In this document: one piece after another, positions 9,346 through 28,315 of the stretch
How the letters are laid out: each line of letters starts with the position of its first letter
Position numbering within the stretch: the stretch's first letter is position 1
Assembly (NCBI RefSeq): GCF_002355635.1
Contig: NZ_AP017558.1
Span: 992,001 to 1,056,000, forward strand
Source: Halopenitus persicus
GTDB lineage: Archaea > Halobacteriota > Halobacteria > Halobacteriales > Haloferacaceae
Direction of reading: 5' to 3'
DNA length: 64,000 bases
Program-made: the position numbers and the translations under genes
Notes under the pieces: generated by a model
The model's input: the letters and a program-made list of their open reading frames with translations, nothing else
Told to the model about the DNA's origin: nothing
Databases searched by the model: none

Positions 9346-9849
9346 ATGCCCGGCACGTACGTGACCTCGGAAACGAACCTGCCCCCGGACCCGGAGGACG
9401 GAGAGATCCGGCTGCAGGTGACCGACCAACACACGAAGGAGATCTTCGACACGCGTGCCCGGGTCAGCCGCGATCCCGACTCGCTCGCGGATCCGGAACC
9501 GCTGACGGTGCTGAAGGGCCCCCACGAGAACGTCGAGGAGCGGTGGTACATCGACGTCATCGAGACCGACGTCGAGGAGCCCGACGTCGACGTCGACCTG
9601 CTCGAGTCGATCATGGACGAGACCGCCGCGGAGAACAACGTGATCAACACGCGGTCGCGCGAGGTGAAGGCGATCCTGCTGTACCTCGAACGGACCGGCG
9701 AGTTCGAGTCGGTCTCGGAGGCGAGCCGGCAGCTGATGCTCGATCACCTCGCCGAGGAGTATCCGGAGCTGCTGGAGGCGTACATCGACCGGAAGGTGGA
9801 ACGGGACCGGGACGGCCTCCGGTCGGCGCTCACGGACGCCGGCGAATGA
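9346..9849 (+). CDS. Conserved haloarchaeal hypothetical protein, 167 residues
   Basis: Not recognised. The first 70 residues look beta-rich (IRLQVTDQHTKEIFDTRARV). A strongly acidic linker DVEEPDVDVDLL follows, then a helical C-terminal half (TRSREVKAILLYLERTG ... ASRQLMLDHLAEEY) that could be a small DNA-binding or dimerisation module. No cysteines, signal peptide or membrane segment. A TATA-like ctttattat at 9310-9318 sits about 30 bases before the ATG. It ends 35 bases before ubiD1 on the same strand, so it may be the first gene of that operon, with no functional link evident. Confidence 0.65.
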   Translation: MPGTYVTSETNLPPDPEDGEIRLQVTDQHTKEIFDTRARVSRDPDSLADPEPLTVLKGPHENVEERWYIDVIETDVEEPDVDVDLLESIMDETAAENNVINTRSREVKAILLYLERTGEFESVSEASRQLMLDHLAEEYPELLEAYIDRKVERDRDGLRSALTDAGE

Positions 9850-9883: not shown

Positions 9884-11395
9884 ATGACGATCGACAGCTT
9901 GCGGGAGTATCTCGCCGTCCTCGAGGCCCACGACGACCTGTCCCGGATCGATGAGGCGGTCTCCTGGAACCTCGAGGCCAGCGCGATCACGATGCTCGCG
10001 AACGAGCGGGACGCGCGGATCCCGCTGTTCGAACGCACCGAGGCCGCCAGGCTCGTCGGGGACCCCTATCGCGGGAGCGGAAGCCGTCCCTGGAACCGGA
10101 TCGCGCTCGGGCTCGACCTCCCGAGGGACCTCTCGCGGTACGAGTTCTACGAGGCGGTGATCGACCGGCTCCAGGACCCGATCCCGCCGACGTCGGTCGA
10201 GGCCGCCGACGCGCCGGTCAAGGAGCGAACGGTGACCGGCGCGGACGTCGACCTGCTCCGGTTCCCGTGGCCGTACATCCACGCCGGCGACGGCGGTCGC
10301 TACTCGAACCTCCACACCCTCGTCGCCCCCGATCCCGACTCGGAGTGGGTCGACTGGTCGTACCACCGCGCGATGGTTCACGACGGCGGGACCGCGAGCG
10401 TGCTGTTGCTCGCGGGCGAGCAGACGCCGAACCTCTATTATTACAAGTACGAACGCCGCGGCGAGCCGATGCCCGTGGCGATCGTCGTGGGCGCCGAGCC
10501 GGCCGTCGAGTACACCTCGGTGATGTGGATCCCGACCGACCGGAGCGAGGCCGAGTTCGCCGGCGGGCTCAAGGGCGAGCCGATCGAGCTCGTCGAGTGC
10601 GAGACGAACGACCTGCGGGTCCCCGCGAACGCGGAGCTGGTCATCGAGGGGGAGATCCTCCCGGACGCCCGACGCGACGAGGGGCCGTTCGGCGACTACT
10701 TCGGGTACATGCACGGCCCGCGGCGGTCGATGCCGGTCCTAGAGGTGTCGGCGATCACCCACCGCGAGGACCCGATCATCCCCTTCTGCGTCGAGGGGTC
10801 CGGCGTCGGCTACGCCGAGAACTCCACGAGCTCGATGGAGGCCGGCTGCGTCGGCCCCGACGCGACGCTCGGCCTCCGAACCGCCGGCTTCGACGTCGAG
10901 TGCTGCGTGCCCTGGACCTCGACGCCGCGAACGGTCTACGTGATCGCCACCGACCGCAGCGAGCCGGGCTACCTCCACGAGCTCGCGAACTTCATCTTCA
11001 CCACCTGGGGGATGTTACACGTCGACTTCTTCGTCTTCGTCGACGCCGACGTCGAGCCCACGGACTCCCGTGCGGTCGTGGAGGCGCTGGCGCTGCACGC
11101 GGACCCGGACGCGGACTTCCACCAGTTCGGCGTCGAGACGATGCCGAAGGTGCCGCTCAACATCTACCAGACGCCCAGCGAGAAGGGCGACATTCAGACC
11201 GGCACCTCGAAGGCGAAGACGGCGAAGACCTACATCGACGCGACCCGGTCGGAGCCGGCGCCGGACCGCTCCCCCGAACTGGAACGGCGCGCACGCGAAA
11301 CGCTCCGGGCGGCCGGAGTCGAACTCGACGTCGAGGACGCGCTGTTGGGCGGCCGACCGCCCCGCGAGGAGCCGACGGGAGGCTGGCGCCGATGA
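9884..11395 (+). CDS. UbiD-family decarboxylase (catalytic type)
   Basis: 503 residues. UbiD enzymes use prenylated FMN and a divalent metal to (de)carboxylate aromatic or alpha,beta-unsaturated acids. Here the hallmark EGPFGDYFGYM is intact (Glu266 to Asp271), preceded by AELVIEGEILPDA and by a WSYHRAMVHDGG segment where the prFMN-contacting Arg lies. The C-terminus FVFVDADVEP and MPKVPLNIYQTP are also typical. It overlaps the next gene by four bases (ATGA), so the two UbiD-like proteins are translationally coupled and may form one enzyme. No UbiX prenyltransferase is in the window. Substrate unknown; the surrounding acyl-CoA and aromatic genes make an aromatic or enoic acid plausible. Confidence 0.85.
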   Translation: MTIDSLREYLAVLEAHDDLSRIDEAVSWNLEASAITMLANERDARIPLFERTEAARLVGDPYRGSGSRPWNRIALGLDLPRDLSRYEFYEAVIDRLQDPIPPTSVEAADAPVKERTVTGADVDLLRFPWPYIHAGDGGRYSNLHTLVAPDPDSEWVDWSYHRAMVHDGGTASVLLLAGEQTPNLYYYKYERRGEPMPVAIVVGAEPAVEYTSVMWIPTDRSEAEFAGGLKGEPIELVECETNDLRVPANAELVIEGEILPDARRDEGPFGDYFGYMHGPRRSMPVLEVSAITHREDPIIPFCVEGSGVGYAENSTSSMEAGCVGPDATLGLRTAGFDVECCVPWTSTPRTVYVIATDRSEPGYLHELANFIFTTWGMLHVDFFVFVDADVEPTDSRAVVEALALHADPDADFHQFGVETMPKVPLNIYQTPSEKGDIQTGTSKAKTAKTYIDATRSEPAPDRSPELERRARETLRAAGVELDVEDALLGGRPPREEPTGGWRR

Positions 11396-12948
11396 GCGGG
11401 TTCGGGCTTCGATCCCACCTGGATCGGCTGCGCGAACGCGGGGACCTCGTCGCGATCGACGACCGCGTCCACTGGGACGAGGAGGCGGCCGCGATCGCCA
11501 CGGTCGCCGCACGGGAGGGCGCCCCCGCCCTGGCGTTCGAGCAAACGCCCGGACACGTCCGGTTCGTCGCCGGCGCGTTCGGCGGTCCCGACCAGCTCGC
11601 CGCCCACGACCGGGAGCCGTGGGACCGGATCGGGGACGCGCTGACCGCGGGCGAGGACCTCGCGACCGTACCGCCGACCCACGAGTACGGCGACCTGCTC
11701 GAGCTGTTGGCCGGCGAGCGGACCGAGCCGGCGACGGCGGCCGACGGCGAGCCCGCAGCGACCCCGGACCCGACGCTCGATCTGCACACCCTCGGGCTGC
11801 CGACCCTCTCGGCGAACACGCGCCCGATCGTCTCGCTGGGGATTCTCGCGGTCGATCTCGGCCCGGAATACGGAACCACATGGGTCCCGGTTCGCGGCGG
11901 CGTCCGGGGCAGCTCGCGGCTCCGGCTCGTGGTCCCGCGCGCGTTTCGTGAGCGGCTCGCAGCCGCGACGGAGGACGCCGGGAGCGGTGGCGGCGGAGTG
12001 AAAAACGGGAGGGAACGCGGCGGGATCGACGGCGGACCGCCGACGGATCCGCCGGCGGTCAGCCTGCTGCTCGGCGTCTCCGCACCGGCGTTGGTCGCGG
12101 CGCTCCAGGGGTGGATCGGCGACCGCGTGCGGACGGACGTCCCCGAACTCGCCGCCGGAATCGCCCCGACGGCGACCGCCCGGGTTGACGGCCGGCTCGT
12201 CCCGCGCGACGCCGAGGTCAGGATCGACGGAACCCTCCGGATGGAGGCGCCGGGTGGCAGGGAGCCGACGGTCACCGGTTCGACGCCGGATCCGGCGAGC
12301 ACGACGACCACGACGGAGGAGCGGCGTGCGGCCTGGGAGGCGGCCTGCGAGACGGCGACCGTCGTGTTGGGGGTCGACCGGATCGCGACCCGGGAGGACC
12401 CGGTCGTGGCCGTCTCGCCGCTGGGCGCCCCGCTGTCGGACGACACCCAGCTCGTGAGCCTCGTCGAGGCCGCACGGCTCTACCGGCGCGTCAACGGGTA
12501 CTGGGGCGTCTCCCCGGTTCGGTGGGTCAGGCTCCCGCCGGAGGGCGGGCTCGGGATGTGTCTGGTCGCCAGCGAGATCCTCTATGCCGGCTTCGAGTGG
12601 CAGCTCGCCAACACGCTGTTCTCGTTCTCGCGGCTCTTCGACAAGGTCCTGATCGTCGACGAGGGATCCGACCCGACCGACCTCGCGAAGGCGCTCGACG
12701 ACATGTGGGTGAAGGCGCACCCGGCCAACGACTGGGCGTTCAGCGAGCCGCACGCCCCGAGCGCGACCGCCACGCGCTACCGGCGCGACGGCGAGACCGG
12801 CTCGCGGCTCCACATCGCCGCCACGTGGGACCCGCGCTGGGACGAGGAGTACATCGCGCCGCGGGTCACCTTCGAACAGTCATTTCCGGAGAACGTCCGC
12901 GAGTCGGTGGCGGAGCGCTGGGACGAGTTCGACCTCGAGCGGGAGTGA
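11392..12948 (+). CDS. Divergent UbiD-like protein lacking the EGPFGD motif
   Basis: 518 residues. The N-terminal LRERGDLVAIDDRVHWDEEAA and the C-terminal FDKVLIVDEGSDPTDLAKAL plus WAFSEP are UbiD-like. The middle is altered: after AEVRIDGTLRMEAP, where EGPFGD should follow, the protein reads GGREPTVTGSTPDPAS and contains a low-complexity STTTTTEE run. A Gly/Arg-rich insertion (about residues 197-222) is also present. The catalytic glutamate and aspartate are therefore missing, which suggests a structural or regulatory partner for the upstream UbiD. Start chosen at 11392 because it overlaps the preceding stop (ATGA) and the protein aligns from there; the frame is open far upstream but only as an antisense-like shadow. 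Confidence 0.75.
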   Translation: MSGFGLRSHLDRLRERGDLVAIDDRVHWDEEAAAIATVAAREGAPALAFEQTPGHVRFVAGAFGGPDQLAAHDREPWDRIGDALTAGEDLATVPPTHEYGDLLELLAGERTEPATAADGEPAATPDPTLDLHTLGLPTLSANTRPIVSLGILAVDLGPEYGTTWVPVRGGVRGSSRLRLVVPRAFRERLAAATEDAGSGGGGVKNGRERGGIDGGPPTDPPAVSLLLGVSAPALVAALQGWIGDRVRTDVPELAAGIAPTATARVDGRLVPRDAEVRIDGTLRMEAPGGREPTVTGSTPDPASTTTTTEERRAAWEAACETATVVLGVDRIATREDPVVAVSPLGAPLSDDTQLVSLVEAARLYRRVNGYWGVSPVRWVRLPPEGGLGMCLVASEILYAGFEWQLANTLFSFSRLFDKVLIVDEGSDPTDLAKALDDMWVKAHPANDWAFSEPHAPSATATRYRRDGETGSRLHIAATWDPRWDEEYIAPRVTFEQSFPENVRESVAERWDEFDLERE

Positions 12949-12986: not shown

Positions 12987-14567
12987 TCACTCGGCGTCCG
13001 CCTCGGGAACGAACTTCACGCCGTACCGCGGGACGCCCTCCTGTTCGTAGATCCGCCGGACCGTCGCCGTGACGGCGTCGCCCACCTCGACGGCGGTCGG
13101 GTCGGCGTCGGTCAGCTGTCCGGGCAGGGTGATCTCGTCGTCGCCCTCCCCGAGGTCGACGATCGCGACCCCGTAGGCGCCGTCGCGCTGCTGGTGGCCG
13201 GCGAACTCCGGCGGCGCGCCGCCCTGGCCGATGACCGTCACGGCACGGACGGTTCCGGTCCGGGGTGCCTCGAACTCCTCGAAGGTGACGCGCTCGTGAC
13301 ACTCCCGACAGGCGCCGGTCGGCGGGAACGTGACGCCGCCGCACTCCGGGCAGCGTCCGGCGACGAGCCGGTAGCGCTGGTCGAGCGAGCCCTGCCAGTT
13401 CGGCAGGCTCACGTGGGCGCCGCCGCCCGCGACCTCGCCGTCGACGATCGTGCCGCGCTTGCGGAGATACTCGTCGTAGGTGATCGACTCGCCGGCGTCC
13501 AGTTCCTCGACGCCGGCGACGGACACCGTCCCGCGGCAGGCCATCGAGACCGCGGTGCCGCCGCCGAAGACGGCCGCGACGCTCCGACGGTCGCCGTCCG
13601 GATCGGCACCGTCCGCCTCGCCGTTCGCGTCGGCGACTGCGGCGAGCAGTCCGATCGGAACCGTCGCGGCGCCCGCGTCGCCGATCCGGTCGGCGACCGT
13701 TCCGGCCTGGACCGCCTCGGGATCGAACGGCAGATCGCCGGTCGCACGGTACGGGAGACTCCCGTTCGGCTGGTGGACCGCGGCGGCATCGACCGCCTCG
13801 AGTCCCGGCCCGGCGAGGGGACCGCCGTCGTCGGCGAGCGCCTCCGTCGCGGCCGTGATCGACTCGCGGATCGCGGTTCGCTGGTAGGTCGTGATGTCGA
13901 GGGTGTCGACCGTCTCGGCGCCGCGCTCGCGGTGGCGGATCCCCGGATACTCCTCGACGTGCCAGGCCGGCTCGCCGACGGAGACCGCGGGATCGCTCGA
14001 CAACACGAACGCGGCCGCGCCGGCGCCCATCGGGTGGTCGGTCTCGGCCGGATCACCCGCCGGGCAGTCGGCGACGACGACCAGCGCAGTCCTCGAGGCG
14101 GCCGCTTCCAGCCCGCGTGCGAGCGCCTCGCCGCCGGCGGCGGTCGAGCCGCCGAGGGTCGCGGTCGCCACGTCCGTCGGCAGCCCGAGCGCGCGAACGA
14201 GCCGCGGCGTGAACTCGCCCTCCTCCATCGGGGGCGTGGTCGTCGCGGTCACCACGAGGTCGACGCGGTCGGGGTCGACCGTATCGGAGCTCGCCGCGCC
14301 GCCGCCGGTCGTCCCGTCGGCGTCACCGGCAAGCACGCGATCGGCGGCGGCGACCGCCATCGTCAGCGCGTCCTCGTCCGCGCCGGCGACGGCCTTTCGC
14401 TCGACGCCGGGTGCGTGGCTCGTCCCCCACGCCTCGGCGATCGCCTCGCTCGAGAGGCGGTACTCGGGCAATCGGATCGCGGCGGTCTCGATGCCGACCG
14501 CGTCGACGTCCGGCGCGGACCCGCCGTCGGCCGCGAGGTCGTTCGCGACGTCACGGTCGGCGCTCAT
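12987..14567 (-). CDS. HMG-CoA synthase-like/DUF35 (zinc ribbon-OB fold) fusion
   Basis: 526 residues in two parts. Residues about 20-350 resemble archaeal HMG-CoA synthase: LSSEAIAEAWG, GVERKAVAGADEDALTMA, and the active-site His segment AAAVHQPNG. The nucleophile position reads TATLGGST, with Thr137 where Cys is expected, so the classical condensation chemistry should be lost. Residues about 395-526 are a DUF35 module with Cys406, Cys409, Cys420 and Cys423, then an OB-fold (TGTVRAVTVIGQGG...). DUF35 proteins normally bridge thiolase and HMG-CoA synthase in archaeal acyl-CoA complexes. It overlaps the thiolase stop by four bases (ATGA), which supports a complex with that thiolase. True mevalonate-pathway HMG-CoA synthase is presumably elsewhere. 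Confidence 0.75.
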   Translation of the reverse strand: MSADRDVANDLAADGGSAPDVDAVGIETAAIRLPEYRLSSEAIAEAWGTSHAPGVERKAVAGADEDALTMAVAAADRVLAGDADGTTGGGAASSDTVDPDRVDLVVTATTTPPMEEGEFTPRLVRALGLPTDVATATLGGSTAAGGEALARGLEAAASRTALVVVADCPAGDPAETDHPMGAGAAAFVLSSDPAVSVGEPAWHVEEYPGIRHRERGAETVDTLDITTYQRTAIRESITAATEALADDGGPLAGPGLEAVDAAAVHQPNGSLPYRATGDLPFDPEAVQAGTVADRIGDAGAATVPIGLLAAVADANGEADGADPDGDRRSVAAVFGGGTAVSMACRGTVSVAGVEELDAGESITYDEYLRKRGTIVDGEVAGGGAHVSLPNWQGSLDQRYRLVAGRCPECGGVTFPPTGACRECHERVTFEEFEAPRTGTVRAVTVIGQGGAPPEFAGHQQRDGAYGVAIVDLGEGDDEITLPGQLTDADPTAVEVGDAVTATVRRIYEQEGVPRYGVKFVPEADAE

Positions 14568-15736
14568 GCGTCCACCTCCGTGCGCTCGAAGACGTGAACC
14601 GTCACGCCGCCGCCGCTGCCGCCGACGTTGTGGGTGAGCCCGTAGGTCGGGTCGTCGACCTGCACGTGGGCCTCCCCGCGGAGCTGGGAGAACGCCTCCA
14701 CGACCTGGCCGGTGCCGGTGGCGCCGATCGGGTGGCCCTTCGATTTGAGGCCGCCGCTGGTGTTCGTCGGCAGCTCGCCGTCGGGGTCGACGACGCCCTC
14801 ACGGAGCAGTCGGCCGGCCTCGCCGCGCTCGCAGAAGCCGAGGTCGTCGTACGCCAGCAGCTCCGCGATCGCGAAGCAGTCGTGGACCTCGGCGAAATCG
14901 AGGTCGTCGGGAGCGACGCCGGCCTCGGCGTAGGCCTGCTCGCCGGCCTGCACGCTCGCGGGGATGCTCGTGAGCGACTCGCGCTGGAAGAGCCCCACGC
15001 GCCCGCTGGCCGCGCCGGCGCCGGCGACTTTGACCGCCGGGCCGTCGAACTCGGCGGCGACCTCCTCGCTCGCCAACAGGGCTGCGCTGGCGCCGTCGGT
15101 GGTCGGACAGCAGTGATAGAGGTTGAGCGGGTCGGCCACGCCCGGCGCGGAGCGCGCGTCCTCCAGCGAACACTCGAACCCGAGGTGCGCCTTTGGGTTC
15201 TTCGCACCGTTGCCGTGGTTCTTCACCGCGACCCGCGAGAGGTCGTCGACGGTCGCGTCGTACGCGTCGAGATAGGCGCTGGCCATCTGGGCGTAGACGC
15301 CGGCGAAGGTCGTCCCGCTCGTGCGTTCCCACTCGGTCTCGCCGCTGACGCCGAGCCACCACTTGGTCTGGTCGGCGCTCGTGTCGGTCATCACCTCATA
15401 GCCGCCCGCCAGCGCGACGTCCGCGGTCCCGGCCCGCACGGCAGTCAGCGCCGAGCGGAACGAGTAGCCGCTGGCGGCACACGCGTTCTCGACGCGGGTC
15501 GTCGGGACGCCGTGCAGTCCCAGGTGTTCAGTGACCGCCGGGCTGCTCAGGCCGATCTGTCGCCCGCCGACGCCGAGCGTTCCCAGGAACGCCTCGTCGA
15601 TCCGGTCCGGATCCAGCTCGCCGCCCACGCTCTCGAGCGCGTTCTCGTAGGCCGTCTCGAACAGCGACAGGTAGGTCTCGTCGGGGAACGAGCCGAACGG
15701 CGACTGGCCAGCCCCGATGACGTACACATCCCTCAT
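14564..15736 (-). CDS. Thiolase family protein (SCP-x type)
   Basis: 390 residues. The nucleophilic Cys is in VENACAASGYSF (about residue 86), the catalytic His in EVHDCFAIAEL and the C-terminal GGLKSKGHPIGATGTGQ signature is intact. SCP-x-type thiolases cleave or form beta-ketoacyl-CoA, or run retro-aldol reactions when paired with DUF35 proteins, as in steroid side-chain degradation. The ATG at 15736 is supported by a minus-strand CGATTTATGTG about 28 bases upstream. First gene of a two-gene operon with the HMGCS-like/DUF35 fusion and divergent from the acyl-CoA dehydrogenase. Likely cytoplasmic acyl-CoA metabolism; direction and substrate not readable from sequence. Confidence 0.88.
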   Translation of the reverse strand: MRDVYVIGAGQSPFGSFPDETYLSLFETAYENALESVGGELDPDRIDEAFLGTLGVGGRQIGLSSPAVTEHLGLHGVPTTRVENACAASGYSFRSALTAVRAGTADVALAGGYEVMTDTSADQTKWWLGVSGETEWERTSGTTFAGVYAQMASAYLDAYDATVDDLSRVAVKNHGNGAKNPKAHLGFECSLEDARSAPGVADPLNLYHCCPTTDGASAALLASEEVAAEFDGPAVKVAGAGAASGRVGLFQRESLTSIPASVQAGEQAYAEAGVAPDDLDFAEVHDCFAIAELLAYDDLGFCERGEAGRLLREGVVDPDGELPTNTSGGLKSKGHPIGATGTGQVVEAFSQLRGEAHVQVDDPTYGLTHNVGGSGGGVTVHVFERTEVDA

Positions 15737-15769: not shown

Positions 15770-15887
15770 TCCCCTCCGGACTCGGGAACGAACGGGAGCG
15801 GTCAACCGCCTCGATCGCGCATGAACGGGGATGCGTGCGTCGGCAAACCTCGGGGCACTTATTAGGACGTGTGCCGCTATCACGCCT

Positions 15888-17042
15888 ATGAGCCTCATCG
15901 AGAGCGCGCTCTCCGAGGAGCATCGGGAGTTCCGTGACCGGGCGGACGACTTCGCCACCGAGGTGGTCGCCCCACGGGCCGAGGCGATCGAGGAGACCGA
16001 CGAGTTCCCCCGCGACGTCCTCGCGGAGGCCGGCGACCGTGGGCTACTCGGCGTGCTGCTGCCCGAGGAATACGGCGGCGAGGGGTCGGACTTCCTCTCG
16101 TACTGTCTCGTGATCGAACGGATCGCGCAGGCGAGCGGCGCGGTCGCCGAGAGCATCCAGGGCCACACCTTCGCGGCGCTGCCGATCGCCCGGCACGGCA
16201 CGGACGCCCAGAAGGAGGCGTATCTCGAGCCGATGGCCCGCGGCGAGTCGATCGGCGCGATGCTGCTCACCGAGCCCGACGCGGGCAGCTCACCGACGGA
16301 GCTTGCAACCGTCGCCGAGGAGACCGACGACGGCTACGCGATCACCGGCGAGAAGGCCTTCGGGACGAACGCCGGCGTCGCCGACGTCCACCTCGTCGTC
16401 GCGCGCAAGCGCCCGGCGCCCGACGAGGGCCACGGCGTGAGCGTCTTCCTCGTTCCGAGCCCCGAGGAGGCGCCGGGATTCACCTTCGACCGCGTGGAGT
16501 TCATGGGGATGCGCGGGCACGTCACCGGCGACTCCGCCTTCGATGACGTGGCGGTCCCCGCGGACGCGCTGCTCGGCGAGGTCGGGCAGGGCTTCCGGAT
16601 CGCGATGGGGACGATCGACATGGCGCGGACCGGCCTCGGCGCGATCGCGACCGGCATCGCGACGGCGGCCTTCGAGGAGGCGGTCGACTACGCCGGCGCC
16701 CGCGAGCAGGGCGGCAACCCGGTCGGCCAGTATCAGGCCGTCCAGGTGCTCGTCGCCGAAATGGACGCGAAGCTCGACGGGGCGCGCCACCTCGTCTACG
16801 ACTCGGCCCACGACATCGCCGCCGGCGAGGGCGACACCCGCGCCTCGAGCAAGGCGAAGTACGTCGCCAGCGACGTCGTCGAGTACGTCACCCGCAACGC
16901 GATCCAGATCCACGGCGGGAAGGGGTACCGGACGGACTACCCCCTCGAGCGCTACTTCCGCGACGCGAAGATCCTCAGCCTCATCGGCGGAACGACCGAG
17001 ATCCAGAAGACGACGGTCGCCGAGCACGCGCTCGACTTATAA
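15888..17042 (+). CDS. Acyl-CoA dehydrogenase
   Basis: 384 residues. Flavin-dependent alpha,beta-dehydrogenation of an acyl-CoA, the first oxidative step of beta-oxidation. Typical blocks are seen in order: LLGVLLPEEYGGEGSDFLSY (about 50-69), AMLLTEPDAGSSPTEL (flavin-binding region, about 125), the C-terminal helical domain, and IQIHGGKGYRTDYPLERYFRDAK with IGGTTEIQK at the end. The start at 15888 is chosen over an upstream ATG because cttattag lies about 28 bases before it and the homology starts here. Divergent from the thiolase operon with only 151 bases between, so both may share regulation. Electron acceptor is presumably ETF. Chain-length preference unknown. Confidence 0.92.
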   Translation: MSLIESALSEEHREFRDRADDFATEVVAPRAEAIEETDEFPRDVLAEAGDRGLLGVLLPEEYGGEGSDFLSYCLVIERIAQASGAVAESIQGHTFAALPIARHGTDAQKEAYLEPMARGESIGAMLLTEPDAGSSPTELATVAEETDDGYAITGEKAFGTNAGVADVHLVVARKRPAPDEGHGVSVFLVPSPEEAPGFTFDRVEFMGMRGHVTGDSAFDDVAVPADALLGEVGQGFRIAMGTIDMARTGLGAIATGIATAAFEEAVDYAGAREQGGNPVGQYQAVQVLVAEMDAKLDGARHLVYDSAHDIAAGEGDTRASSKAKYVASDVVEYVTRNAIQIHGGKGYRTDYPLERYFRDAKILSLIGGTTEIQKTTVAEHALDL

Positions 17043-17379: not shown

Positions 17380-18216
17380 TTACTCGGCGTCGCCGGGTTC
17401 CTTCTCGCCCTTCTCGACCGCGAGGAAGTCGGGGTCACGCTTGCCGAGGTAGGCGTCGACGCCCTCCTTGGCGATGTCGGAGCCGAGCAGGCGGTTCTGC
17501 AGCTCGCGCTCGTGGGCCAGCGCGTCCGACAGCGGGAGCTCGAGCCCCTCGTTGACGGCGAGCTTGTTGTTGCCGACCGCGAGGTTCGGCTTCTGGACGA
17601 TCTGGTCGGCGAACTCGCGGGCCGCGTCCTCGACCTCCTCCGGCGAGTGGATCTCGTCGAAGATGCCGCGCTCGGTCGCCTCCTCGGGGGTCAGCGTCTC
17701 GCCCGTGATCATCATCTTCAGGGCGGTCGAACGGTCGATGTACCGCGGCAGGAGCTGCGTGCCGGCCTCGCCGGCGATGAGACCCAGGTGGACCTCCGGC
17801 ATCCCGACGCTGTAGTCGTCGTCGTCGCCGACGTAGCGGAAGTCACACGCGAGCGCGAGCTCGAGGCCGCCGCCCATACAGTGGCCGTTGACCATCGCGA
17901 TGAAGATCGTGTCCGTGGTGCGGATCTTCATGATGACCTCCTTGCTGGTCTGGCTCGCGTAGCCGATCTGCTGGCCGGACTTCTCCTGGAGGACGCCGAT
18001 GTCGAAGCCGGTCGAGAAGATGTCCTCGTTCGCGCTGCCGAACAGTACCACGCGGACGTCGTCGTCGAACCGGATCACTTCGACGGCGCGCTGGAGCTCC
18101 AGCAGGACGTCGATGTGGTGCGCGTTCGCCGGCGGGCGGTTCAGTCGGAGGTAGCCGACGTGGTCGTCCAGGTTCGTCTCGAAGTACTCGAGGTCGAGCT
18201 CGGTGAACGATTGCAT
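17380..18216 (-). CDS. Enoyl-CoA hydratase/isomerase family protein
   Basis: 278 residues. Both hydratase glutamates are present: VNGHCMGGGLELALACD and GMPEVHLGLIAGEAGTQLLPR. The oxyanion segment is FSTGFDIGVLQEK, and NRPPANAHHIDVL near residue 27 is slightly unusual for the family. Hydration of an enoyl-CoA (PaaF-like or beta-oxidation) is the likely job. A strong minus-strand TATA (ctatttatatact) lies just upstream, so it is transcribed separately from the paa operon that precedes it on the same strand; the gap to the zinc-ribbon gene is 181 bases. The C-terminal 15 residues are charged and non-conserved. Confidence 0.85.
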   Translation of the reverse strand: MQSFTELDLEYFETNLDDHVGYLRLNRPPANAHHIDVLLELQRAVEVIRFDDDVRVVLFGSANEDIFSTGFDIGVLQEKSGQQIGYASQTSKEVIMKIRTTDTIFIAMVNGHCMGGGLELALACDFRYVGDDDDYSVGMPEVHLGLIAGEAGTQLLPRYIDRSTALKMMITGETLTPEEATERGIFDEIHSPEEVEDAAREFADQIVQKPNLAVGNNKLAVNEGLELPLSDALAHERELQNRLLGSDIAKEGVDAYLGKRDPDFLAVEKGEKEPGDAE

Positions 18217-18397: not shown

Positions 18398-18673
18398 TCA
18401 GCTCGTGTCGGGCCGCTTCCCGTCGTACTTGATCCGCTCGAAGACGGTGTGACAGCCGTTGCAGTAGTACTGCGACTTCGAGATCTCGCTGCCGAACTGG
18501 GACTCCTGCTCCACGTCCGTCGACTCGCAGAACGGACACCGGACCGTCGGCTCGTCGTCGCCGCGGTCGGTCCCGTCGGCGGCGTCGGGATCCGCGTCCT
18601 CGGCGTCGGGATCCGCGTCCTCGACGTCGGGGTCCACGTCCCCGCCGGTCCGGCCCTCGGATGCCACCGTCAT
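18398..18673 (-). CDS. Stand-alone PaaD-type zinc-ribbon protein
   Basis: 91 residues. The second half, CPFCESTDVEQESQFGS ... YYCNGCHTVFERIKYDGK, matches the C-terminal zinc ribbon of bacterial PaaD, which helps mature or support the phenylacetyl-CoA epoxidase. Here it is a separate protein, while the N-terminal DUF59 half of PaaD is encoded upstream in the same operon. The first 45 residues are an acidic linker made by a 21-bp in-frame tandem repeat. Its ATG overlaps the paaC stop by one base (TGATG), so it is the last gene of the paa operon. Confidence 0.8.
   Translation of the reverse strand: MTVASEGRTGGDVDPDVEDADPDAEDADPDAADGTDRGDDEPTVRCPFCESTDVEQESQFGSEISKSQYYCNGCHTVFERIKYDGKRPDTS
18581..18643. 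repeat. In-frame tandem repeat, 21 bp unit, 3 copies
   Basis: Unit ggcgtcgggatccgcgtcct plus c at 18581, 18602 and (diverged) 18623. It encodes the repeated DPDAEDA linker of the zinc-ribbon protein. Confidence 0.85.
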
Positions 18674-19437
18674 CAGTCCATCACGTACAGTTCGTTGCTG
18701 TCGCCGCGGATCTGGACGAGATCGGCTTCGGGGATCGATCCGCCGTTCACGCGGCGGCGGGTCTCGTTCCACGCCTCGAGGTCGGGGGCCGAGCGGTCCA
18801 CGTTCTCGAGCGAGACGGGGGTTCCCTCGAAGAGGTCCTCGAAGTGACGGAGGTAGGACTCGCGGATCTCGGCGACGGGACGGTCGGTGAAGCCGGCCGC
18901 GTACAGCGGGTCCGACTCGGCGTCGTGTTCGGCGGGGCCGATGAACGCGAGCGCCTGCGGCAGCGTCTCCTCGAGCGTCGACTGGATGACCTCGGCCTCC
19001 TTCTCGGCGAGGCTCTCGAGGCGGGCGTCGTGGTACTCCAGGTGGAAGTACTCGTCCTCGCCCATCTTCGTCACCATCCCGCCGAAGTCCTCGTGGTCGA
19101 TCGCATCGAGCAGGTACCACGCGGCGCGGTCGGCGGTGGCCATCGTCGCGAGGTATGCGGGCCACTCGCCCTCGATCGAATCGAGGCTGGCGACGTTGTT
19201 GACCGCCTCGGGATCGCGGTGTCCGTCGAGCCAGTCCGAGTCGCGTCCCTGGTCCTCGAGGAGCCGGAAGAGCTGTCGGACGTGTCCGACCTCCTCCTGG
19301 GCGGCGCTGGCGCCGCCGATGTCGTCCTCGAGCGAGGGACCGGTCAGGGACCACTGCGCGTAGCGGTGTCCCAGGACGAGCTTCGTGTCCGTGATCGCCT
19401 GGACGTAGTCCACGGCGGCGTCGGGCCACTCGCTCAT
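18673..19437 (-). CDS. paaC: Phenylacetyl-CoA epoxidase subunit PaaC
   Basis: 254 residues, ferritin-like helical protein. PaaC is the structural partner of the catalytic PaaA in the di-iron oxygenase that epoxidises phenylacetyl-CoA. Visible family blocks are LVLGHRYAQWSLTGPSLEDD, QEEVGHVRQLFRLLED and GEDEYFHLEYHDARL. The start at 19437 overlaps the paaB stop by four bases (ATGA), which fixes it; the longer upstream frame is not homologous. Part of the paaA-DUF59-paaB-paaC-zinc-ribbon operon. Confidence 0.92.
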   Translation of the reverse strand: MSEWPDAAVDYVQAITDTKLVLGHRYAQWSLTGPSLEDDIGGASAAQEEVGHVRQLFRLLEDQGRDSDWLDGHRDPEAVNNVASLDSIEGEWPAYLATMATADRAAWYLLDAIDHEDFGGMVTKMGEDEYFHLEYHDARLESLAEKEAEVIQSTLEETLPQALAFIGPAEHDAESDPLYAAGFTDRPVAEIRESYLRHFEDLFEGTPVSLENVDRSAPDLEAWNETRRRVNGGSIPEADLVQIRGDSNELYVMD

Positions 19438-19640
19438 GCCGGCGAGAGCACCTCCTGATCGACGTCGACCTCGTGAACGTCCTCCCGGCGGACGACCGCG
19501 AGGAAGTCCCAATCCTCCTCGTCGAAGGTGTTGTGCGCGTACAGCTTCGCGAGCCGATCGCTGTCCGCCTGTACGTTTCCGATGTGGAGCGTCTCATCGC
19601 CCTGGTTGATCCGGGCGAAGACTTCGTAATGTCGTGTCAT
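19434..19640 (-). CDS. paaB: Phenylacetyl-CoA epoxidase subunit PaaB
   Basis: 68 residues, shorter than the roughly 95 of E. coli PaaB. Conserved start YEVFARINQGDETLHIGNVQA and NTFDEEDWDFLAVVRREDV. PaaB is a small beta-rich subunit that bridges PaaAC heterodimers and may dock the reductase. It overlaps paaC by four bases and follows the DUF59 gene by 36 bases. Confidence 0.9.
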   Translation of the reverse strand: MTRHYEVFARINQGDETLHIGNVQADSDRLAKLYAHNTFDEEDWDFLAVVRREDVHEVDVDQEVLSPA

Positions 19641-19676
19641 CGTTGTCTGCTGTTTCGGTGTGTCTCGGTGGCTGTG

Positions 19677-20087
19677 TTACAGGCTGATGCCCGATTCGTT
19701 CATCTTCCGGCGGACGTCCGCCGTCAGCATCTCCTTCGACCAGACGGGCTCCCAGACGACGTCCACGTCGACCGAGTCCACCCGGTCGTACACGAGCAGG
19801 CAGCTCTCGATGTCGTTGTGGATCATGTCGTAGGCGGGACAGCCCATACAGGGGAAGGTCATCTCGACGTCGACGTGGCCGTCCGCGTAGTCGACGTCGT
19901 AGATCATCCCCATCTCGACGAGGCTCACCGGGATGTGCGGGTCCGGGATCTCGTCGACGACGTCCCAGACCTCCGCCTCGAAGCCCGTCGCGTCCCGGCG
20001 GCGACGTTCGATGAAGTCGCTGGAGGTCGCGGGAGCCGTGGAGTCGTCCGGCGTCGAGTCGTCCGGCGTCGGGGTGCTACAGGACAT
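19677..20087 (-). CDS. paaD: PaaD DUF59 domain protein (N-terminal half of PaaD)
   Basis: 136 residues. A 25-residue low-complexity start (TPDDSTPDDST from a 15-bp repeat) precedes a complete DUF59/MIP18 domain: VVDEIPDPHIPVSLVEMGMIYDV, then the Cys pair in FPCMGCPAYDMIHNDI and WSKEMLTADVRRKM. In bacterial PaaD this domain is fused to a zinc ribbon; here the ribbon is a separate gene at 18398-18673. DUF59 proteins serve in Fe-S or di-iron centre assembly, and PaaD is needed for an active epoxidase. One base after paaA stop. Confidence 0.88.
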   Translation of the reverse strand: MSCSTPTPDDSTPDDSTAPATSSDFIERRRRDATGFEAEVWDVVDEIPDPHIPVSLVEMGMIYDVDYADGHVDVEMTFPCMGCPAYDMIHNDIESCLLVYDRVDSVDVDVVWEPVWSKEMLTADVRRKMNESGISL

Positions 20088-20088
20088 C

Positions 20089-21009
20089 TTACACCTGCAC
20101 TTCGACGGTCTTCGACTGGATCAGGTCGACGTACTTCTCGTTGGCCGGGCCGCGACCGCGCCAGCGGTCGATGACGTCGTCCCAGGAGATCGGCTCGTCG
20201 AAGCGCCACTCCTTGTTCTCCTCGTCGAAGGCGACCGGGAACTCGTAATCGAGGACGTACTCGTCGGCCTCGTCGTCGTAGTGGGCCGGAACGTCGAGTT
20301 CGAGCTCGTTCATCAGCGGCATCGCGCGCTCGAGCCAGTCCTCGCGCAGCTCGTCGTTCGTCTTGCCCTTGATGCGGTACTCGAGCTGCTCGTCGTGTTT
20401 CTTCTTGTCGTCCGGCAGGCCGAACCACTCGATCGCCATCGGGAACATCCAGTCGATGGCGTCCTGGAGCTTCGCGCGCGTCTTGTCGCTTTTGTTGGCG
20501 AGCCGGCGCATCCAGGTCTCGCCGTGGCGCAGGTGGAACTGCTCCTCCTTGTTCACCTTCGTGAGCGCGCGCTTCCAGGGCGCGTAGGAGGTGTTCTCGT
20601 GAACGTCGCTGAGGAGGACGATCCCCGCGCGGTCGAACATCCCGTGCGCGCTGACGAGCTCCGCGAAGTTGTCGATGTGCTGGTCGAACCCGTACGTGTT
20701 CCGGAACTCGTGCGGTTCCCGCTCGTAGATGAGGTCGTGGCGGTCCTCGCCGAGGTCCTCGAGGAGTCGATAGGCGATGTGGCCGTGGCCGAGCTCGTCC
20801 TGGATGACGCTGATACAGGACGCGCGGGCGTCCATCGACGGCGCGTTGAGCGACTGCTCGTAGTAGGCGGGCGCGCTCATCAACTCGGTGTCGCCCGAGA
20901 CGGTGAGGATCTGCTTGAGCGCCTTCTCGTAGCCCTCAGTCATCTCGTCGCGCGACTCGATCATCTTCCCGTTCTGTACTTGCTCTTTGAGTTTCGCTTC
21001 CGTGGGCAT
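20089..21009 (-). CDS. paaA: Phenylacetyl-CoA epoxidase catalytic subunit PaaA
   Basis: 306 residues. Ferritin-like di-iron oxygenase; ligand motifs ISVIQDELGHGHIAYRLL (ExxH) and NKEEQFHLRHGETWM (ExxH) are intact, with additional acidic ligands in SMDARAS/DVHENT regions expected for the family. Inserts one oxygen atom into the ring of phenylacetyl-CoA to give the 1,2-epoxide. First gene of the operon. A minus-strand GATTATAACC lies 34-43 bases upstream, implying a short leader. Divergent from the GNAT-ferredoxin pair, which could supply electrons. Confidence 0.95.
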   Translation of the reverse strand: MPTEAKLKEQVQNGKMIESRDEMTEGYEKALKQILTVSGDTELMSAPAYYEQSLNAPSMDARASCISVIQDELGHGHIAYRLLEDLGEDRHDLIYEREPHEFRNTYGFDQHIDNFAELVSAHGMFDRAGIVLLSDVHENTSYAPWKRALTKVNKEEQFHLRHGETWMRRLANKSDKTRAKLQDAIDWMFPMAIEWFGLPDDKKKHDEQLEYRIKGKTNDELREDWLERAMPLMNELELDVPAHYDDEADEYVLDYEFPVAFDEENKEWRFDEPISWDDVIDRWRGRGPANEKYVDLIQSKTVEVQV

Positions 21010-21134: not shown

Positions 21135-21142
21135 TTTTTAAT
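21135..21142 (+). promoter_or_regulatory. TATA-like element of the GNAT-ferredoxin operon
   Basis: tttttaat about 26 bases before the ATG at 21165, consistent with a leaderless transcript. Confidence 0.45.
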
Positions 21143-21164
21143 CCTCGGCGTCATTCGGGCTCGT

Positions 21165-21662
21165 ATGACCTACGAGGTTCGACACGCCGAGTCCGACGAT
21201 GGCGAAGAACTCCTCGAGCTCTGGCACGGATTCACCGAACACCTCTCGAAGTACGACGAGCGCTACCGGCACAAGGAAAGCGCCAACGATCGGTGGCTGA
21301 AGTACTTCGAGAACCAGCTGCTCAACTCCAAATACGGCACCGTCGTGGTCGCCGAAGACGCCGACTCCGGCGACCTCGTCGGAGTTCTCGAAGCGCGCGT
21401 GCGGGGCAATCACCCGATCTTCCGCCTGAAGAATCACGGCTACATCAACGGACACTACGTTATGGAGGACCACCGCAACGAGGGACTCGGCCGACGGATG
21501 GTCGACGTCGCCCACGAGTGGTTCGCGGAGGATCCCCGCGAGGTTGACTTCTACCGCGTCGACGTGATGCACGGCGACGAGGACTCCGCCGAGTTCTACC
21601 GCAATCAGGGCTTCGAGCCGGTCGAACACGTCTACGAACGGCGCGTCGACGAGGACGCCTAA
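21165..21662 (+). CDS. GNAT-family N-acetyltransferase
   Basis: 165 residues, one GNAT fold. The acetyl-CoA-binding motif A is HYVMEDHRNEGLGRRMVDVA (about 106-125), corresponding to R/Q-x-x-G-x-G/A. C-terminal SAEFYRNQGFEPVEHVYERR is also typical. Transfers an acetyl group to an amine on a protein or metabolite; target unknown. Two bases separate its stop from the ferredoxin ATG, so the two genes are co-transcribed. Their divergent placement next to paaA suggests, but does not show, a link to phenylacetate metabolism. Confidence 0.85.
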   Translation: MTYEVRHAESDDGEELLELWHGFTEHLSKYDERYRHKESANDRWLKYFENQLLNSKYGTVVVAEDADSGDLVGVLEARVRGNHPIFRLKNHGYINGHYVMEDHRNEGLGRRMVDVAHEWFAEDPREVDFYRVDVMHGDEDSAEFYRNQGFEPVEHVYERRVDEDA

Positions 21663-21664
21663 GC

Positions 21665-21958
21665 ATGGTCGAGACCCACACCGTCGAGTTCGTCGACCTC
21701 GACCGGACGATCGAGGTCGCGGAGAACGAACCGATCCTGGAGGCCGCCGAGGCCGCCGGGATCGACATGCCCTACCAGTGCCGGATGGGCGTCTGTGGCG
21801 TCTGTTCGGCCAAGCTCGCCGGCGACAGCGACCCGAGCGACGTCGATCAGACCGAGGGAATGTTCCTCTCCGACTCCGAGAAGGAGGAGGGATACGTGTT
21901 GACATGTATCGCGAAGCCGCGTGCCGACCTCAAGCTCGAGACGGACCGCGGTCCCTGA
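21665..21958 (+). CDS. Plant-type [2Fe-2S] ferredoxin
   Basis: 97 residues. Ligand set Cys-x4-Cys-x2-Cys (YQCRMGVCGVCSAKL) with the fourth Cys in YVLTCIAKPRADL matches the plant-type ferredoxin fold. EAAEAAGIDMPYQC is the usual lead-in. This corresponds to the C-terminal ferredoxin domain of PaaE, the flavoprotein reductase of the epoxidase, which is otherwise absent from the window. It may therefore carry electrons to PaaABC with a reductase encoded elsewhere. Downstream of the GNAT gene in the same operon, followed by an 847-base gene-free stretch. Confidence 0.88.
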   Translation: MVETHTVEFVDLDRTIEVAENEPILEAAEAAGIDMPYQCRMGVCGVCSAKLAGDSDPSDVDQTEGMFLSDSEKEEGYVLTCIAKPRADLKLETDRGP

Positions 21959-22805: not shown

Positions 22806-24440
22806 TTATTGACGCTCGCGTTCGCGAAGCTCGGTCCGGCGGATCTTGCCCGTCTCGGTCCGCGGGAGGGACTCGACGAACTCGACCGCGCGAGGGTACT
22901 TGTATGGGGCGAGCGTGTCCTTGACGTGGTTCTGGATCGTCTCGACGAGCGCGTCGTCGCCCGTGACGTCCTCTGCGGTGACGACGAACGCCTTCACGAT
23001 CTCGCCGCGCTCCTCGTGCGGGCTGCCCACGACGGCGACCTCCGCGACCTCCGCGACCTCCTCGACGACGGCCTCGACCTCCGGGCCGGGGATGTTGTAT
23101 CCGCTGGAGACGATGAGGTCGTCGTTGCGGGACTTGTACTCGAAACGGCCGTCCTCGCGCTGGACGAAGATGTCGCCCGGCAGCGACCAGCCGTCCTCGA
23201 CGGCGTCCTCCTGTTTTTCCGGTCGATTCCAGTACTCGACGCCGGTCGGGCCGCGAACGGCCAGCAGTCCGGCCTCGCCGCGTTCACACTCCTCGCCCGT
23301 GTCCGGGTCGATGATCTTCGCCTCGTAGCCGGGGACCGCGAACCCGGTCGCGCTCGGGTCGATCTCCTCGTCGTGCCGGTGGCTGATGAAGATGTGGAGC
23401 ATCTCCGTGGTGCCGATCCCGTCGAGGAGCTTGATGCCGTACTCCTCCTTGACGTTCTCGAAGGTGGTCGGCGTGAGCGGCTCGCCGGCGCTGAGCCCGA
23501 GCCGGAGCGAGGAGAGGTCGTACTCCTCGGTGGCGTCCGGGTGCTGGGAGAGCATCTGGTTGTAGCCGGTCGGGATCGAACACATCACGGTGATGCCGTG
23601 ATCCTCGGTGGCCTCGAGGAGGTCCTCCGGCGAGGCGTTCTCGACGAGGCTCACGCTCGCGCCGAAGCGGAGCGGGAACGTGACCAGGTCCCCGTAGCCG
23701 TACGCGAACGGCAGGGGCGGGTTGCCGCCGAAGACGTCGTCGGCGGTCGGCTCGATGCAGTAGCGTGCGTACCCGTCCGCCGTCGCGAGGACGTGCCGGT
23801 GGGTGTGGATCGCACCCTTCGGCCGACCGGTCGTGCCGCTCGTGTACAGCATCAGAGCCAGGTCGTCGCGCTCGGTGGGGTACGCCTCGAGTTCGGGGCT
23901 GGCGTCCGCGAGGAGCTCGTCGTAGTCGTGATGGTCGTGTTCGACGCCGTTGCGCTGGGCCACGATCACGTCCTCGACGGTGTCGAGGTCGGGCAGCGCG
24001 TTATTGACCTCCTCGAGTAGGTCGTCGTAGACGACGACCGTCGACGCCTCGGCGTTGTCGATGATGTACCGCAGTTCCTTGGCGCGCAGTAGCTTCATCG
24101 ACGGGAGCGCGACCGCGCCGATCTTCTGGACCGCCAGACAGGTGACGATGGCTTCGGGACGGTTCGGGAACCGGGCGACGACGCGGTCGCCGGCCTCGAC
24201 GCCGAGGTCGGACAGCGCGTTCCCCATCCGGTTGACACGCTCCTGCAGCTCGGCGTAGGTGATCTCCTCGTCCTCGAAGTGGATCGCCACGGCGTCGCCG
24301 TGACCGTTGCGCACGTGGACGTCGACGAGCTGTTCGGCGGCGTTGATCTCCTGCGTGTAGTGGAGTTCCGGGAGCGGGTGGATGTAATCCGGTCGGTCCG
24401 ACTCGTCCGGAAGGTACTCCTGTGGTACTGATGGCTGCAT
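22806..24440 (-). CDS. AMP-forming acyl/aryl-CoA ligase, benzoate-CoA-ligase-like
   Basis: 544 residues of the ANL superfamily. The ATP-binding P-loop LMLYTSGTTGRPKGAIHTH (about 200-218), then GIGTTEMLHIF, the DIFVQREDGRFEYKSRNDDL hinge region and the C-terminal catalytic lysine in LPRTETGKIRRTEL are all intact. The N-terminal YTQEINAAEQLVD and FANPLPFAYGYGD-like segment (GGNPPLPFAYGYG) resemble benzoate-/2-aminobenzoate-CoA ligases more than acetyl-CoA synthetases. It probably activates an aromatic acid such as phenylacetate or benzoate for the neighbouring pathway. Minus-strand AGTATAACG lies about 30 bases upstream. Confidence 0.8.
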   Translation of the reverse strand: MQPSVPQEYLPDESDRPDYIHPLPELHYTQEINAAEQLVDVHVRNGHGDAVAIHFEDEEITYAELQERVNRMGNALSDLGVEAGDRVVARFPNRPEAIVTCLAVQKIGAVALPSMKLLRAKELRYIIDNAEASTVVVYDDLLEEVNNALPDLDTVEDVIVAQRNGVEHDHHDYDELLADASPELEAYPTERDDLALMLYTSGTTGRPKGAIHTHRHVLATADGYARYCIEPTADDVFGGNPPLPFAYGYGDLVTFPLRFGASVSLVENASPEDLLEATEDHGITVMCSIPTGYNQMLSQHPDATEEYDLSSLRLGLSAGEPLTPTTFENVKEEYGIKLLDGIGTTEMLHIFISHRHDEEIDPSATGFAVPGYEAKIIDPDTGEECERGEAGLLAVRGPTGVEYWNRPEKQEDAVEDGWSLPGDIFVQREDGRFEYKSRNDDLIVSSGYNIPGPEVEAVVEEVAEVAEVAVVGSPHEERGEIVKAFVVTAEDVTGDDALVETIQNHVKDTLAPYKYPRAVEFVESLPRTETGKIRRTELRERERQ

Positions 24441-26561: not shown

Positions 26562-27437
26562 TTAGGCGTCGTTCCACTCGGGGTCGCGGTCCTCGAAGAA
26601 CGCCGCGATCCCCTCGTCCTTGTCGGCGGTGGCGAACAGCTGGCTGAACAGCTCGGCCTCGTATTCGATGCCGTCCTCGAGCCCGAGTTGCCCGCTCGCC
26701 CGGACCGCGTCCTTGGCGAACTCGAGCGCCACGAGGCTCTTGTCGGCCATCATTCCCGCCAGCTCGGCGACTCGCTCGTCGAGCTCGTCGGGCTCGTACA
26801 CCTCGTCGACGAGGCCGATCTCGGCCGCCTCCGCGGCGTCGATCAGCTCGCCGGAGAGGATCAACCGCAATGCCTGCCCGGTGCCGACGATCCGGGGGAG
26901 CCGCTGCGTGCCGCCGCCGCCGGGGATGATACCCAGGTTGATCTCGGGCTGGCCGAGCTTCGCGCGCGTGGAGGCGATCCGAACGTCACACGCCTGCGCG
27001 AGCTCGCAGCCACCGCCCAGCGCGTGGCCGTTGATCCGGGCGATCACGGGCTTCGAGAGCTCCGCGACGCGCTCGTAGATCCGGGGGCGCTCGCTGACCT
27101 CGCGCTGGTCGATCGCGTCCCGGTCGCGGAACTCGCCCACGTCCGCGCCCGCGACGAACGCCTTCCCCTCGGGGTCGCCGGTCACCACGACGACCCGGAC
27201 CGAATCGTCGTCGTCGACCGCCGCGAGGACGCTCGAGAACTCCTCGCGGACCGTCGCATCGAGCGCGTTCCGCGCGTCCGGTCGCGAGATCGTGATCGTC
27301 GCGACACCCTCGGCGAGGTCGTCGACCGCCACGTCGACGGTGTCACAGTCGGCTGCGGCTTCGATGACATCGGCATCGTCGGTCGCGGCGGTCGCATCCG
27401 CGGCGGACGCGTCCGCGTCGGCGTCGTTTCCAGTCAT
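26562..27437 (-). CDS. Enoyl-CoA hydratase
   Basis: 291 residues. Best canonical hydratase of the window: FVAGADVGEFRDRD, INGHALGGGCELAQACD (first Glu), GQPEINLGIIPGGGGTQRLPR (second Glu). The first 40 residues are an Asp/Ala-rich extension. Hydrates 2-enoyl-CoA to 3-hydroxyacyl-CoA, directly feeding the dehydrogenase encoded just upstream, with which it overlaps by four bases (ATGA). The pair forms the hydratase/dehydrogenase core of a beta-oxidation-type spiral, split here into two proteins rather than fused as in bacterial FadB. Confidence 0.92.
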   Translation of the reverse strand: MTGNDADADASAADATAATDDADVIEAAADCDTVDVAVDDLAEGVATITISRPDARNALDATVREEFSSVLAAVDDDDSVRVVVVTGDPEGKAFVAGADVGEFRDRDAIDQREVSERPRIYERVAELSKPVIARINGHALGGGCELAQACDVRIASTRAKLGQPEINLGIIPGGGGTQRLPRIVGTGQALRLILSGELIDAAEAAEIGLVDEVYEPDELDERVAELAGMMADKSLVALEFAKDAVRASGQLGLEDGIEYEAELFSQLFATADKDEGIAAFFEDRDPEWNDA

Positions 27438-28315
27438 CGGTCGTCGTCCCCGCTGACGCCGACGACCTCGCCGTCCTCCCAGACGTAGAAGCCCTCGCCG
27501 GACTTCTTCCCGAGCTTGCCCGCGCGGACCTTGCGTTTGAGGGTCTGTGGCGGCTTGAACCGTTCGCCGAGCTCCTCGCGGAGGTACTCGAGGATGTCGA
27601 GGCGGACGTCGAGTCCGACCACGTCGGTCAGCTCGAGGGGGCCCATCGGGTGGTTGTAGCCGAGCTCCATCGCCTGGTCGATGTCCTCGGCGGAGGCGAC
27701 GCCCTCCTCGAGCATCCGGATCGCCTCGACGCCGAGCGCGACCCCGAGTCGTGAGGAGGCGAACCCCGCGGTATCGGTGACCGTCACCGGCTCCTTGTCG
27801 ATCTCCTCGACGAGATCGGTCGCCGCGGCGAGCGTCCCCTCGCTCGTCTGTTCGGCGACGATGATCTCCACGAGCCCCATAATGTGGACGGGATTGAAGA
27901 AGTGGAGCCCGACCGCGCGCTCGGGGCGCTCCAGGGCGTCGGCGATCGCCGTCATCGACAGCGAGGAGGTGTTGCTGGCGATGATCGCGTCGTCGGCGAC
28001 GTGTTCCTCCACGTCCGCGAAGGTGTCGCGTTTGAGGTCGAGGTCCTCGGGGACGGCCTCGATCACGAACGACGCGTCCGCGACCGCGTCCGCGAGGTCG
28101 GTCGTCGTGTCGATACGGTCGAGGGCCGCGTCCGCCTCGGCCTGCGTCAGCTTGTCGCGCTCGACGCCGCCCTGCAGGTTCTTCTCGATCGCGTCGACCC
28201 CGTCATCGAGGATCCCCGTCTCGATGTCGCGGATCGTGACGTCGTGGCCCGCCATCGCGGTCACCTGTGCGATACCGTGTCCCATCGTGCCGGCTCCGAG
28301 TACGGTAACGTTCAT
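27434..28315 (-). CDS. 3-hydroxyacyl-CoA dehydrogenase
   Basis: 293 residues. NAD-binding motif VTVLGAGTMGHGIAQ at the N-terminus, then VIEAVPEDLDLK, SNTSSLSMT, the catalytic HFFNPVHIMGLVE (His-Glu pair) and the C-terminal dimerisation domain NHPMGPLELTDVVGLD ... KLGKKSGEGFYVW. Oxidises 3-hydroxyacyl-CoA to the keto form; PaaH-like in a phenylacetate pathway. It is the first gene of a two-gene operon with the hydratase. A minus-strand CTTAATG lies about 28 bases upstream and a stronger TTTATATACC about 80 bases upstream. Confidence 0.93.
   Translation of the reverse strand: MNVTVLGAGTMGHGIAQVTAMAGHDVTIRDIETGILDDGVDAIEKNLQGGVERDKLTQAEADAALDRIDTTTDLADAVADASFVIEAVPEDLDLKRDTFADVEEHVADDAIIASNTSSLSMTAIADALERPERAVGLHFFNPVHIMGLVEIIVAEQTSEGTLAAATDLVEEIDKEPVTVTDTAGFASSRLGVALGVEAIRMLEEGVASAEDIDQAMELGYNHPMGPLELTDVVGLDVRLDILEYLREELGERFKPPQTLKRKVRAGKLGKKSGEGFYVWEDGEVVGVSGDDDR

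Follow-up and report, generated by a model that had tools for sequence, protein, structure and literature searches.

The minus-strand open reading frame at positions 12987–14567 (ATG start, stop included) of the window, i.e. the whole 64,000-nucleotide stretch of Halopenitus persicus DNA that was analysed, encodes a protein of 526 residues in which a domain resembling HMG-CoA synthase (HMGCS), devoid of the nucleophilic cysteine, is fused to a DUF35 domain (zinc-ribbon/OB adaptor). This fusion protein is probably a non-catalytic partner subunit of the thiolase encoded next to it, serving as the pseudoenzyme scaffold of a two-subunit beta-ketothiolase. A scaffold role had been suggested in the initial annotation of this DNA; the loss of catalytic residues, the strict pairing with a Cys thiolase and the precedent of PhlABC speak in favour of it.

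The domain assignment rests on the reading frame and on profile matches. Residues ~22–375 (13443–14504, minus strand) form a thiolase-fold domain that matches the archaeal HMG-CoA synthase profile NF003274 (E 1.4e-28) with 100 bits, short of the equivalog cut-off of 244, and TIGR00748 with 54 bits against a cut-off of 353. Residues 390–526 (12990–13400, minus strand) constitute the DUF35 domain, with a zinc ribbon (Cys406, Cys409, Cys420 and Cys423) followed by an OB fold; both zf-ChsH2 (PF12172, 36.2 bits) and OB_ChsH2_C (PF01796, 31.5 bits) exceed their Pfam gathering scores. These matches bear out the HMGCS/DUF35 fusion recognised earlier. The best sequence relatives of known structure are subunits of the thiolase/DUF35/HMGCS complex from Methanothermococcus thermolithotrophicus and of PhlABC. 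A single-chain AF2 model calculated from a 29-sequence alignment (mean pLDDT 82, pTM 0.85) superimposes on 6esq_I, the HMGCS chain of the former complex, with a Z-score of 41.0 and an rmsd of 2.3 over 323 aligned residues (VIA-align), and hence the HMGCS fold is kept. The PhlA chains reach Z-scores of ~40, and DUF35-bridged complexes are the nearest structures. In the open-licence literature that we searched, no paper on a haloarchaeal HMGCS-like/DUF35 fusion was found. A fusion of this kind is nevertheless a variant on a known design, since PhlABC already provides an example of an HMGCS-like scaffold without the Cys.

Thr142 (codon 14142–14144, minus strand), the final residue of the motif ATLGGST, aligns with the nucleophilic Cys of 6esq_I (EFACKAG) and of canonical archaeal HMGCS; a Thr in place of the catalytic Cys had been stated in the initial annotation. 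The AF2 model places Thr142 between strand 134–139 and helix 144–156, where the nucleophile elbow is expected. Two further losses had been missed: Thr stands at the position of the catalytic Glu, which is Glu82 in M. thermolithotrophicus HMGCS, and Asp (Asp297) at that of the GN-motif Asn. The active-site His, His265 within HQPNG, is indeed present in the window protein. With Cys, Glu and Asn all replaced, the earlier description of the synthase part as catalytically dead appears apt.

For the family as a whole, 85 fused proteins (including that of the window) and 12 unfused haloarchaeal proteins, drawn from whole genomes and plasmids of haloarchaea, were aligned with the chains of solved structures and with three canonical HMGCS of the archaeal type that other members of the order encode. 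Residue counts depend on this alignment, in which the motifs ATTTPP, GSTxAG and GDxG are unambiguous in most rows, and Cys is absent from the nucleophile position in all 97 haloarchaeal family members. The fused proteins carry Thr (78), Ala (6) or Val (1) there, and the unfused ones Thr (5), Pro (3), Ala (2), Trp (1) or Glu (1). At the Glu position the fused set has Thr (72) or Ser (13), and the GN-motif Asn is Asp in all 85. The active-site His is retained in 31 of the 85, the clade of the window protein among them, and is lost in about two thirds. Canonical HMGCS in the same alignment have Glu, Cys, His and Asn at the four sites. Since no family member has the Cys, a sequencing error or frameshift is ruled out. 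Judged from the aligned sequences, the loss of Cys is an old, family-wide state of haloarchaea and not peculiar to this genome.

The fold and the local motif are kept, and Cys168 occurs in 54% of the fused set, which would be in line with a functional HMG-CoA synthase in which Thr142 or another Cys is the nucleophile. We consider this extremely improbable, since Glu and Asn are lost as well, a normal HMGCS is present, and the only invariant cysteines of the fused proteins are the four zinc ligands (85/85). The latter finding, together with PF12172, also confirms that the zinc ribbon is kept. The comparison with bona fide HMG-CoA synthases that had been proposed with the annotation thus yielded no Cys elsewhere fit for the nucleophile role, and a replacement Cys is ruled out. 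A second, Cys-containing HMG-CoA synthase had also been proposed for a search, and it was found: a PF01154 enzyme with the motif FACVSG is encoded elsewhere on the same contig, which rules out the fusion as the only HMG-CoA synthase of the cell. PF01154 matches above the cut-off were present in all nine fusion-bearing genomes tested. Consequently, mevalonate synthesis does not depend on the fused protein, and a name that assigns such proteins to the mevalonate pathway would be misplaced.

The three canonical archaeal-type enzymes of the alignment (L067, L068 and L069, from genomes G058, G045 and G043) present a mirror image. Here the HMGCS has Cys, Glu and His, and the adjoining thiolase has Asp in place of Cys (VEAADASGG). 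These three genomes have no PF01154 match above the cut-off, and each encodes another Cys thiolase elsewhere.

In a class-wide sample of 292 haloarchaeal genomes, the full-length fusion occurs in about 169 (count taken from the table), unfused versions in seven others and fragments on contig ends in two. A collection-wide contig scan by patterns, which were too specific, returned only two near relatives. A tree built from the synthase domain separates two clades (100/99 each), one of canonical HMGCS, to which the M. thermolithotrophicus enzyme belongs, and one that unites every Cys-less haloarchaeal protein. A recent, genus-specific loss of the Cys is thereby ruled out. The deepest branches of the Cys-less clade are unfused; therefore, as far as the tree can tell, the loss of the Cys probably preceded fusion to DUF35. 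On this tree, the His must have changed state three times or more. With midpoint rooting, canonical HMGCS and not PhlA/MucA stand beside the haloarchaeal clade, although the position of the root is arbitrary and the MucA branch is long. The direction of change consequently depends on the canonical state being older, and the canonical, catalytic state is the older one in the superfamily. Two genomes (G064 and G239; loci L116, L117, L131 and L132) each contain two unfused Cys-less thiolase/HMGCS-like/DUF35 sets a few kb apart, the second of which belongs to the deepest branch of the Cys-less clade.

Within the genus, all three parts of the system are under purifying selection, which is strongest in the thiolase (dN/dS 0.007–0.05), intermediate in DUF35 (0.09–0.14) and weakest in the synthase-like domain (0.20–0.23). 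The synthase domain could be regarded as decaying junk carried along by a useful DUF35 domain, since it is the least constrained part. A dN/dS of ~0.2 rather than 1, the full-length open frame in so many genomes and the intact fold of the AF2 model make such decay very unlikely.

A somewhat better case, yet still an unlikely one, can be made for non-covalent catalysis. The synthase-like domain would then use Thr142, Asp297 and, in the clade of the window protein, the His for an aldol or retro-aldol reaction, an enolisation or the hydrolysis of an acyl-CoA, and pass its product to the thiolase or receive it from there. Thr142 and Asp297 are strongly conserved, this clade keeps the His, and thiolase-fold aldolases with DUF35 partners exist (Ltp2/Sal). 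The conservation of Thr142 in particular exceeds the need of a scaffold position, though Ala and Val occur, and counts against a pure scaffold. On the other hand, the catalytic Glu is lost everywhere and the His in most of the fused proteins, the weakest constraint falls on the synthase domain, and PhlA has the same Asn-to-Asp change and takes no part in acyl transfer. As a further possibility, the initial annotation had named another type of acyl-transfer or aldol reaction; for the synthase domain, with Glu, Asn and mostly His gone and no other conserved Cys, this proposal is not supported by the data.

The partner thiolase (14564–15733, minus strand, 389 residues; profile matches and motifs) retains Cys85 within VENACAASG, along with GHPIGATG and HNVGGSGG, in agreement with the earlier claim that it keeps its Cys. 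Cys is the nucleophile in every copy of the partner thiolase with a readable site; where haloarchaeal PhaA/BktB have a catalytic Ser (Ser-His-His), the window thiolase has Cys85. At each of the 32 loci whose gene order was examined, the fusion gene is immediately preceded by the thiolase gene. Its stop codon overlaps the ATG of the fusion by 4 nt (ATGA) in the window and likewise in most other loci. Elsewhere in the same genome (L108, C1:2490447–2491586) another thiolase is encoded, whose nucleophile site reads TSSSGG and fits the Ser-His-His type of haloarchaeal PhaA/BktB.

According to profile matches and gene order, the conserved neighbours of the pair are a UbiD-family decarboxylase (9884–11395, plus strand), a second UbiD-like protein without a match to the PF01977 core (11392–12948, plus), an acyl-CoA dehydrogenase (15831–17042, plus) and an enoyl-CoA hydratase/isomerase (17380–18216, minus), followed by a PaaC-like oxygenase subunit (18673–19512, minus). 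Further along, all on the minus strand, are a PaaD-like (FeS_assembly_P) protein recognised by profile match (19677–20087), a PaaA-like oxygenase subunit (20089–21009), a benzoate-CoA-ligase-like AMP-forming acyl-CoA ligase (22806–24440; TIGR02262 371 bits, cut-off 375), a PaaF-like enoyl-CoA hydratase (26562–27437) and a PaaH-like 3-hydroxyacyl-CoA dehydrogenase (27434–28315). In the clade of the window protein the conserved gene order is UbiD, UbiD, fusion, thiolase, acyl-CoA dehydrogenase, enoyl-CoA hydratase, PaaC, PaaD, PaaA (and acyl-CoA ligase). Haladaptatus has the same gene set with a benzoate-CoA ligase, and genes for 3-hydroxyacyl-CoA dehydrogenase and enoyl-CoA hydratase come after the pair in other relatives. 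In Haloferax mediterranei the pair, WP_004060772/WP_004060773, is located within ~14 kb of paaC, paaD and paaE and adjoins paaK. A second thiolase gene adjoins the pair in this species, and therefore the pair may not provide the main thiolase of the pathway. Beta-oxidation or paa genes were present at about two thirds of the fetched loci and absent from about one third within the stretch fetched, some of these lying on short contigs. The thiolase/fusion pairs thus usually sit in clusters for the degradation of phenylacetate or other aromatic-CoA compounds.

Several details of this neighbourhood deserve mention on their own. The PaaA-, PaaB-, PaaC- and PaaD-like oxygenase genes (18398–21009) fall well short of the cut-offs for phenylacetyl-CoA epoxidase (133 versus 280 for the PaaA-like gene), and the set, close to a benzoate-CoA-ligase-like gene, is possibly a different aromatic-CoA oxygenase. 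In the same region, the PaaD zinc ribbon appears to be a separate small open reading frame. Of the tandem UbiD pair, the second protein has matches to the N- and C-terminal UbiD domains only and may be another non-catalytic partner. The open reading frames at 9346–9849 and 21138–21905 have no Pfam or NCBIfam match, and relatives conserve both in the same gene clusters.

The aromatic gene context, the three-part architecture with a Cys-less synthase-like subunit and the GD motif common to the family and PhlA could also indicate a PhlABC-like acyltransferase, which would acylate or deacylate phenolic rings at carbon independently of CoA and would not be a CoA thiolase. Against this, PhlA and MucA fall outside the haloarchaeal clade in the tree, and the window thiolase is far closer to 6esq_A, the archaeal acetoacetyl-CoA thiolase (E 1.9e-80), than to PhlC (E 1.8e-29); the thiolase chain of 7pxp gives E 7.6e-48. 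Because of this difference and of the CoA beta-oxidation genes in the vicinity, CoA-dependent cleavage is favoured over CoA-free acyl transfer, and we rate the acyltransferase as improbable, slightly more so than non-covalent catalysis.

For the preferred reading, a non-catalytic partner of the thiolase, the following mechanism can be envisaged. The synthase-like domain would have lost covalent catalysis along with Cys, Glu and Asn, and would act as a scaffold and as a wall of the CoA/substrate site of the thiolase. The fused DUF35 domain would dock this pseudo-synthase onto the thiolase, a role that falls to a free-standing DUF35 protein in PhlABC and in the archaeal thiolase/HMGCS complex. 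The chemistry would be left to the Cys85 thiolase, most likely as a CoA-dependent (retro-)Claisen cleavage of a 3-oxoacyl-CoA that would originate from ring cleavage and beta-oxidation of aromatic acids. PaaJ is the enzyme for the same cleavage step in bacteria. Formation of the complex, the lack of activity, the direction of the thiolase reaction and its substrate are points that we infer; a ring-derived 3-oxoacyl-CoA as the substrate is a guess from context with about even chances of being right.

We further propose, with our confidence evenly balanced, that haloarchaea turned the archaeal mevalonate complex of thiolase, DUF35 and HMG-CoA synthase to degradative use. Once a separate HMGCS supplied mevalonate, the synthase of the complex would have shed its catalytic residues while its fold persisted in the role of a pseudoenzyme subunit; fusion to DUF35 would have come later. 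The result would be a pseudoenzyme-dependent class of thiolases for aromatic-acid degradation, encoded by over half of the sampled haloarchaeal genomes. If this is true, the degradative thiolases of haloarchaea include a whole class that depends on a dead synthase, and the case of PhlA is extended from one enzyme of secondary metabolism to a common archaeal one. Why a thiolase should need an HMGCS-shaped partner thereby becomes a testable question.

Among known systems, the archaeal acetoacetyl-CoA thiolase/DUF35/HMG-CoA synthase complex of M. thermolithotrophicus (PDB 6esq) contains the same three modules; it is the best sequence match for all of them and the best fold match for the synthase domain. 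Its HMGCS is active, with Cys114 and Glu82 (PMC6392133), and makes HMG-CoA. The haloarchaeal system, by contrast, has lost both residues and has DUF35 fused to the synthase part, and mevalonate supply relies on a PF01154 enzyme of its own.

A functional precedent is provided by the two-subunit thiolases PhaA and BktB of Haloferax mediterranei, which combine a catalytic alpha subunit with a beta subunit that carries an OB domain. According to a review of these haloarchaeal beta-ketothiolases, they are alpha/beta enzymes whose beta subunit is indispensable for activity, and the review mentions no HMGCS-like domain for the beta subunits (PMC7137286). In our loci, too, the thiolase gene adjoins an OB-domain gene (32/32). 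PhaA/BktB differ in that their alpha subunits use Ser-His-His, whereas the motifs here indicate Cys-His-His, and in that they serve PHA synthesis rather than aromatic degradation. The benzoylsuccinyl-CoA thiolase BbsAB (PDB 7pxp) is likewise a degradative beta-oxo-acyl-CoA thiolase with a DUF35 partner. To our knowledge, BbsAB has no known HMGCS-like partner.

HMGCS-like subunits without the nucleophilic Cys also occur in two bacterial multicomponent acyltransferases, MucABC of Streptococcus macacae (PDB 9vbo), where MucA has Glu at this position in our alignment, and CsATase PhlABC (9skh), in which C88 of PhlC is essential. Unlike the haloarchaeal fusion, both are unfused.

The closest precedent is the pair PhlA and PhlB of PhlABC, the multicomponent acyltransferase of Pseudomonas protegens (PDB 5m3k and 5mg5). 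PhlA adopts the HMGCS fold and lacks Cys and Glu, and PhlC alone catalyses, yet all three subunits of PhlABC are needed for activity (PMC6392133). PhlA and PhlB are separate chains, whereas the corresponding parts are fused here; the nucleophile position is Gly in PhlA and Thr in the window protein; and PhlA belongs to a clade separate from the haloarchaeal proteins in the synthase-domain tree. PhlABC acts on phloroglucinols without CoA, in contrast to a partner resembling acetoacetyl-CoA thiolase within beta-oxidation gene clusters here. Both systems nevertheless have an HMGCS-fold part lacking Cys and Glu, a DUF35 part and a thiolase-fold Cys protein, which is bound to the other two in PhlABC and is encoded by the adjacent gene here.
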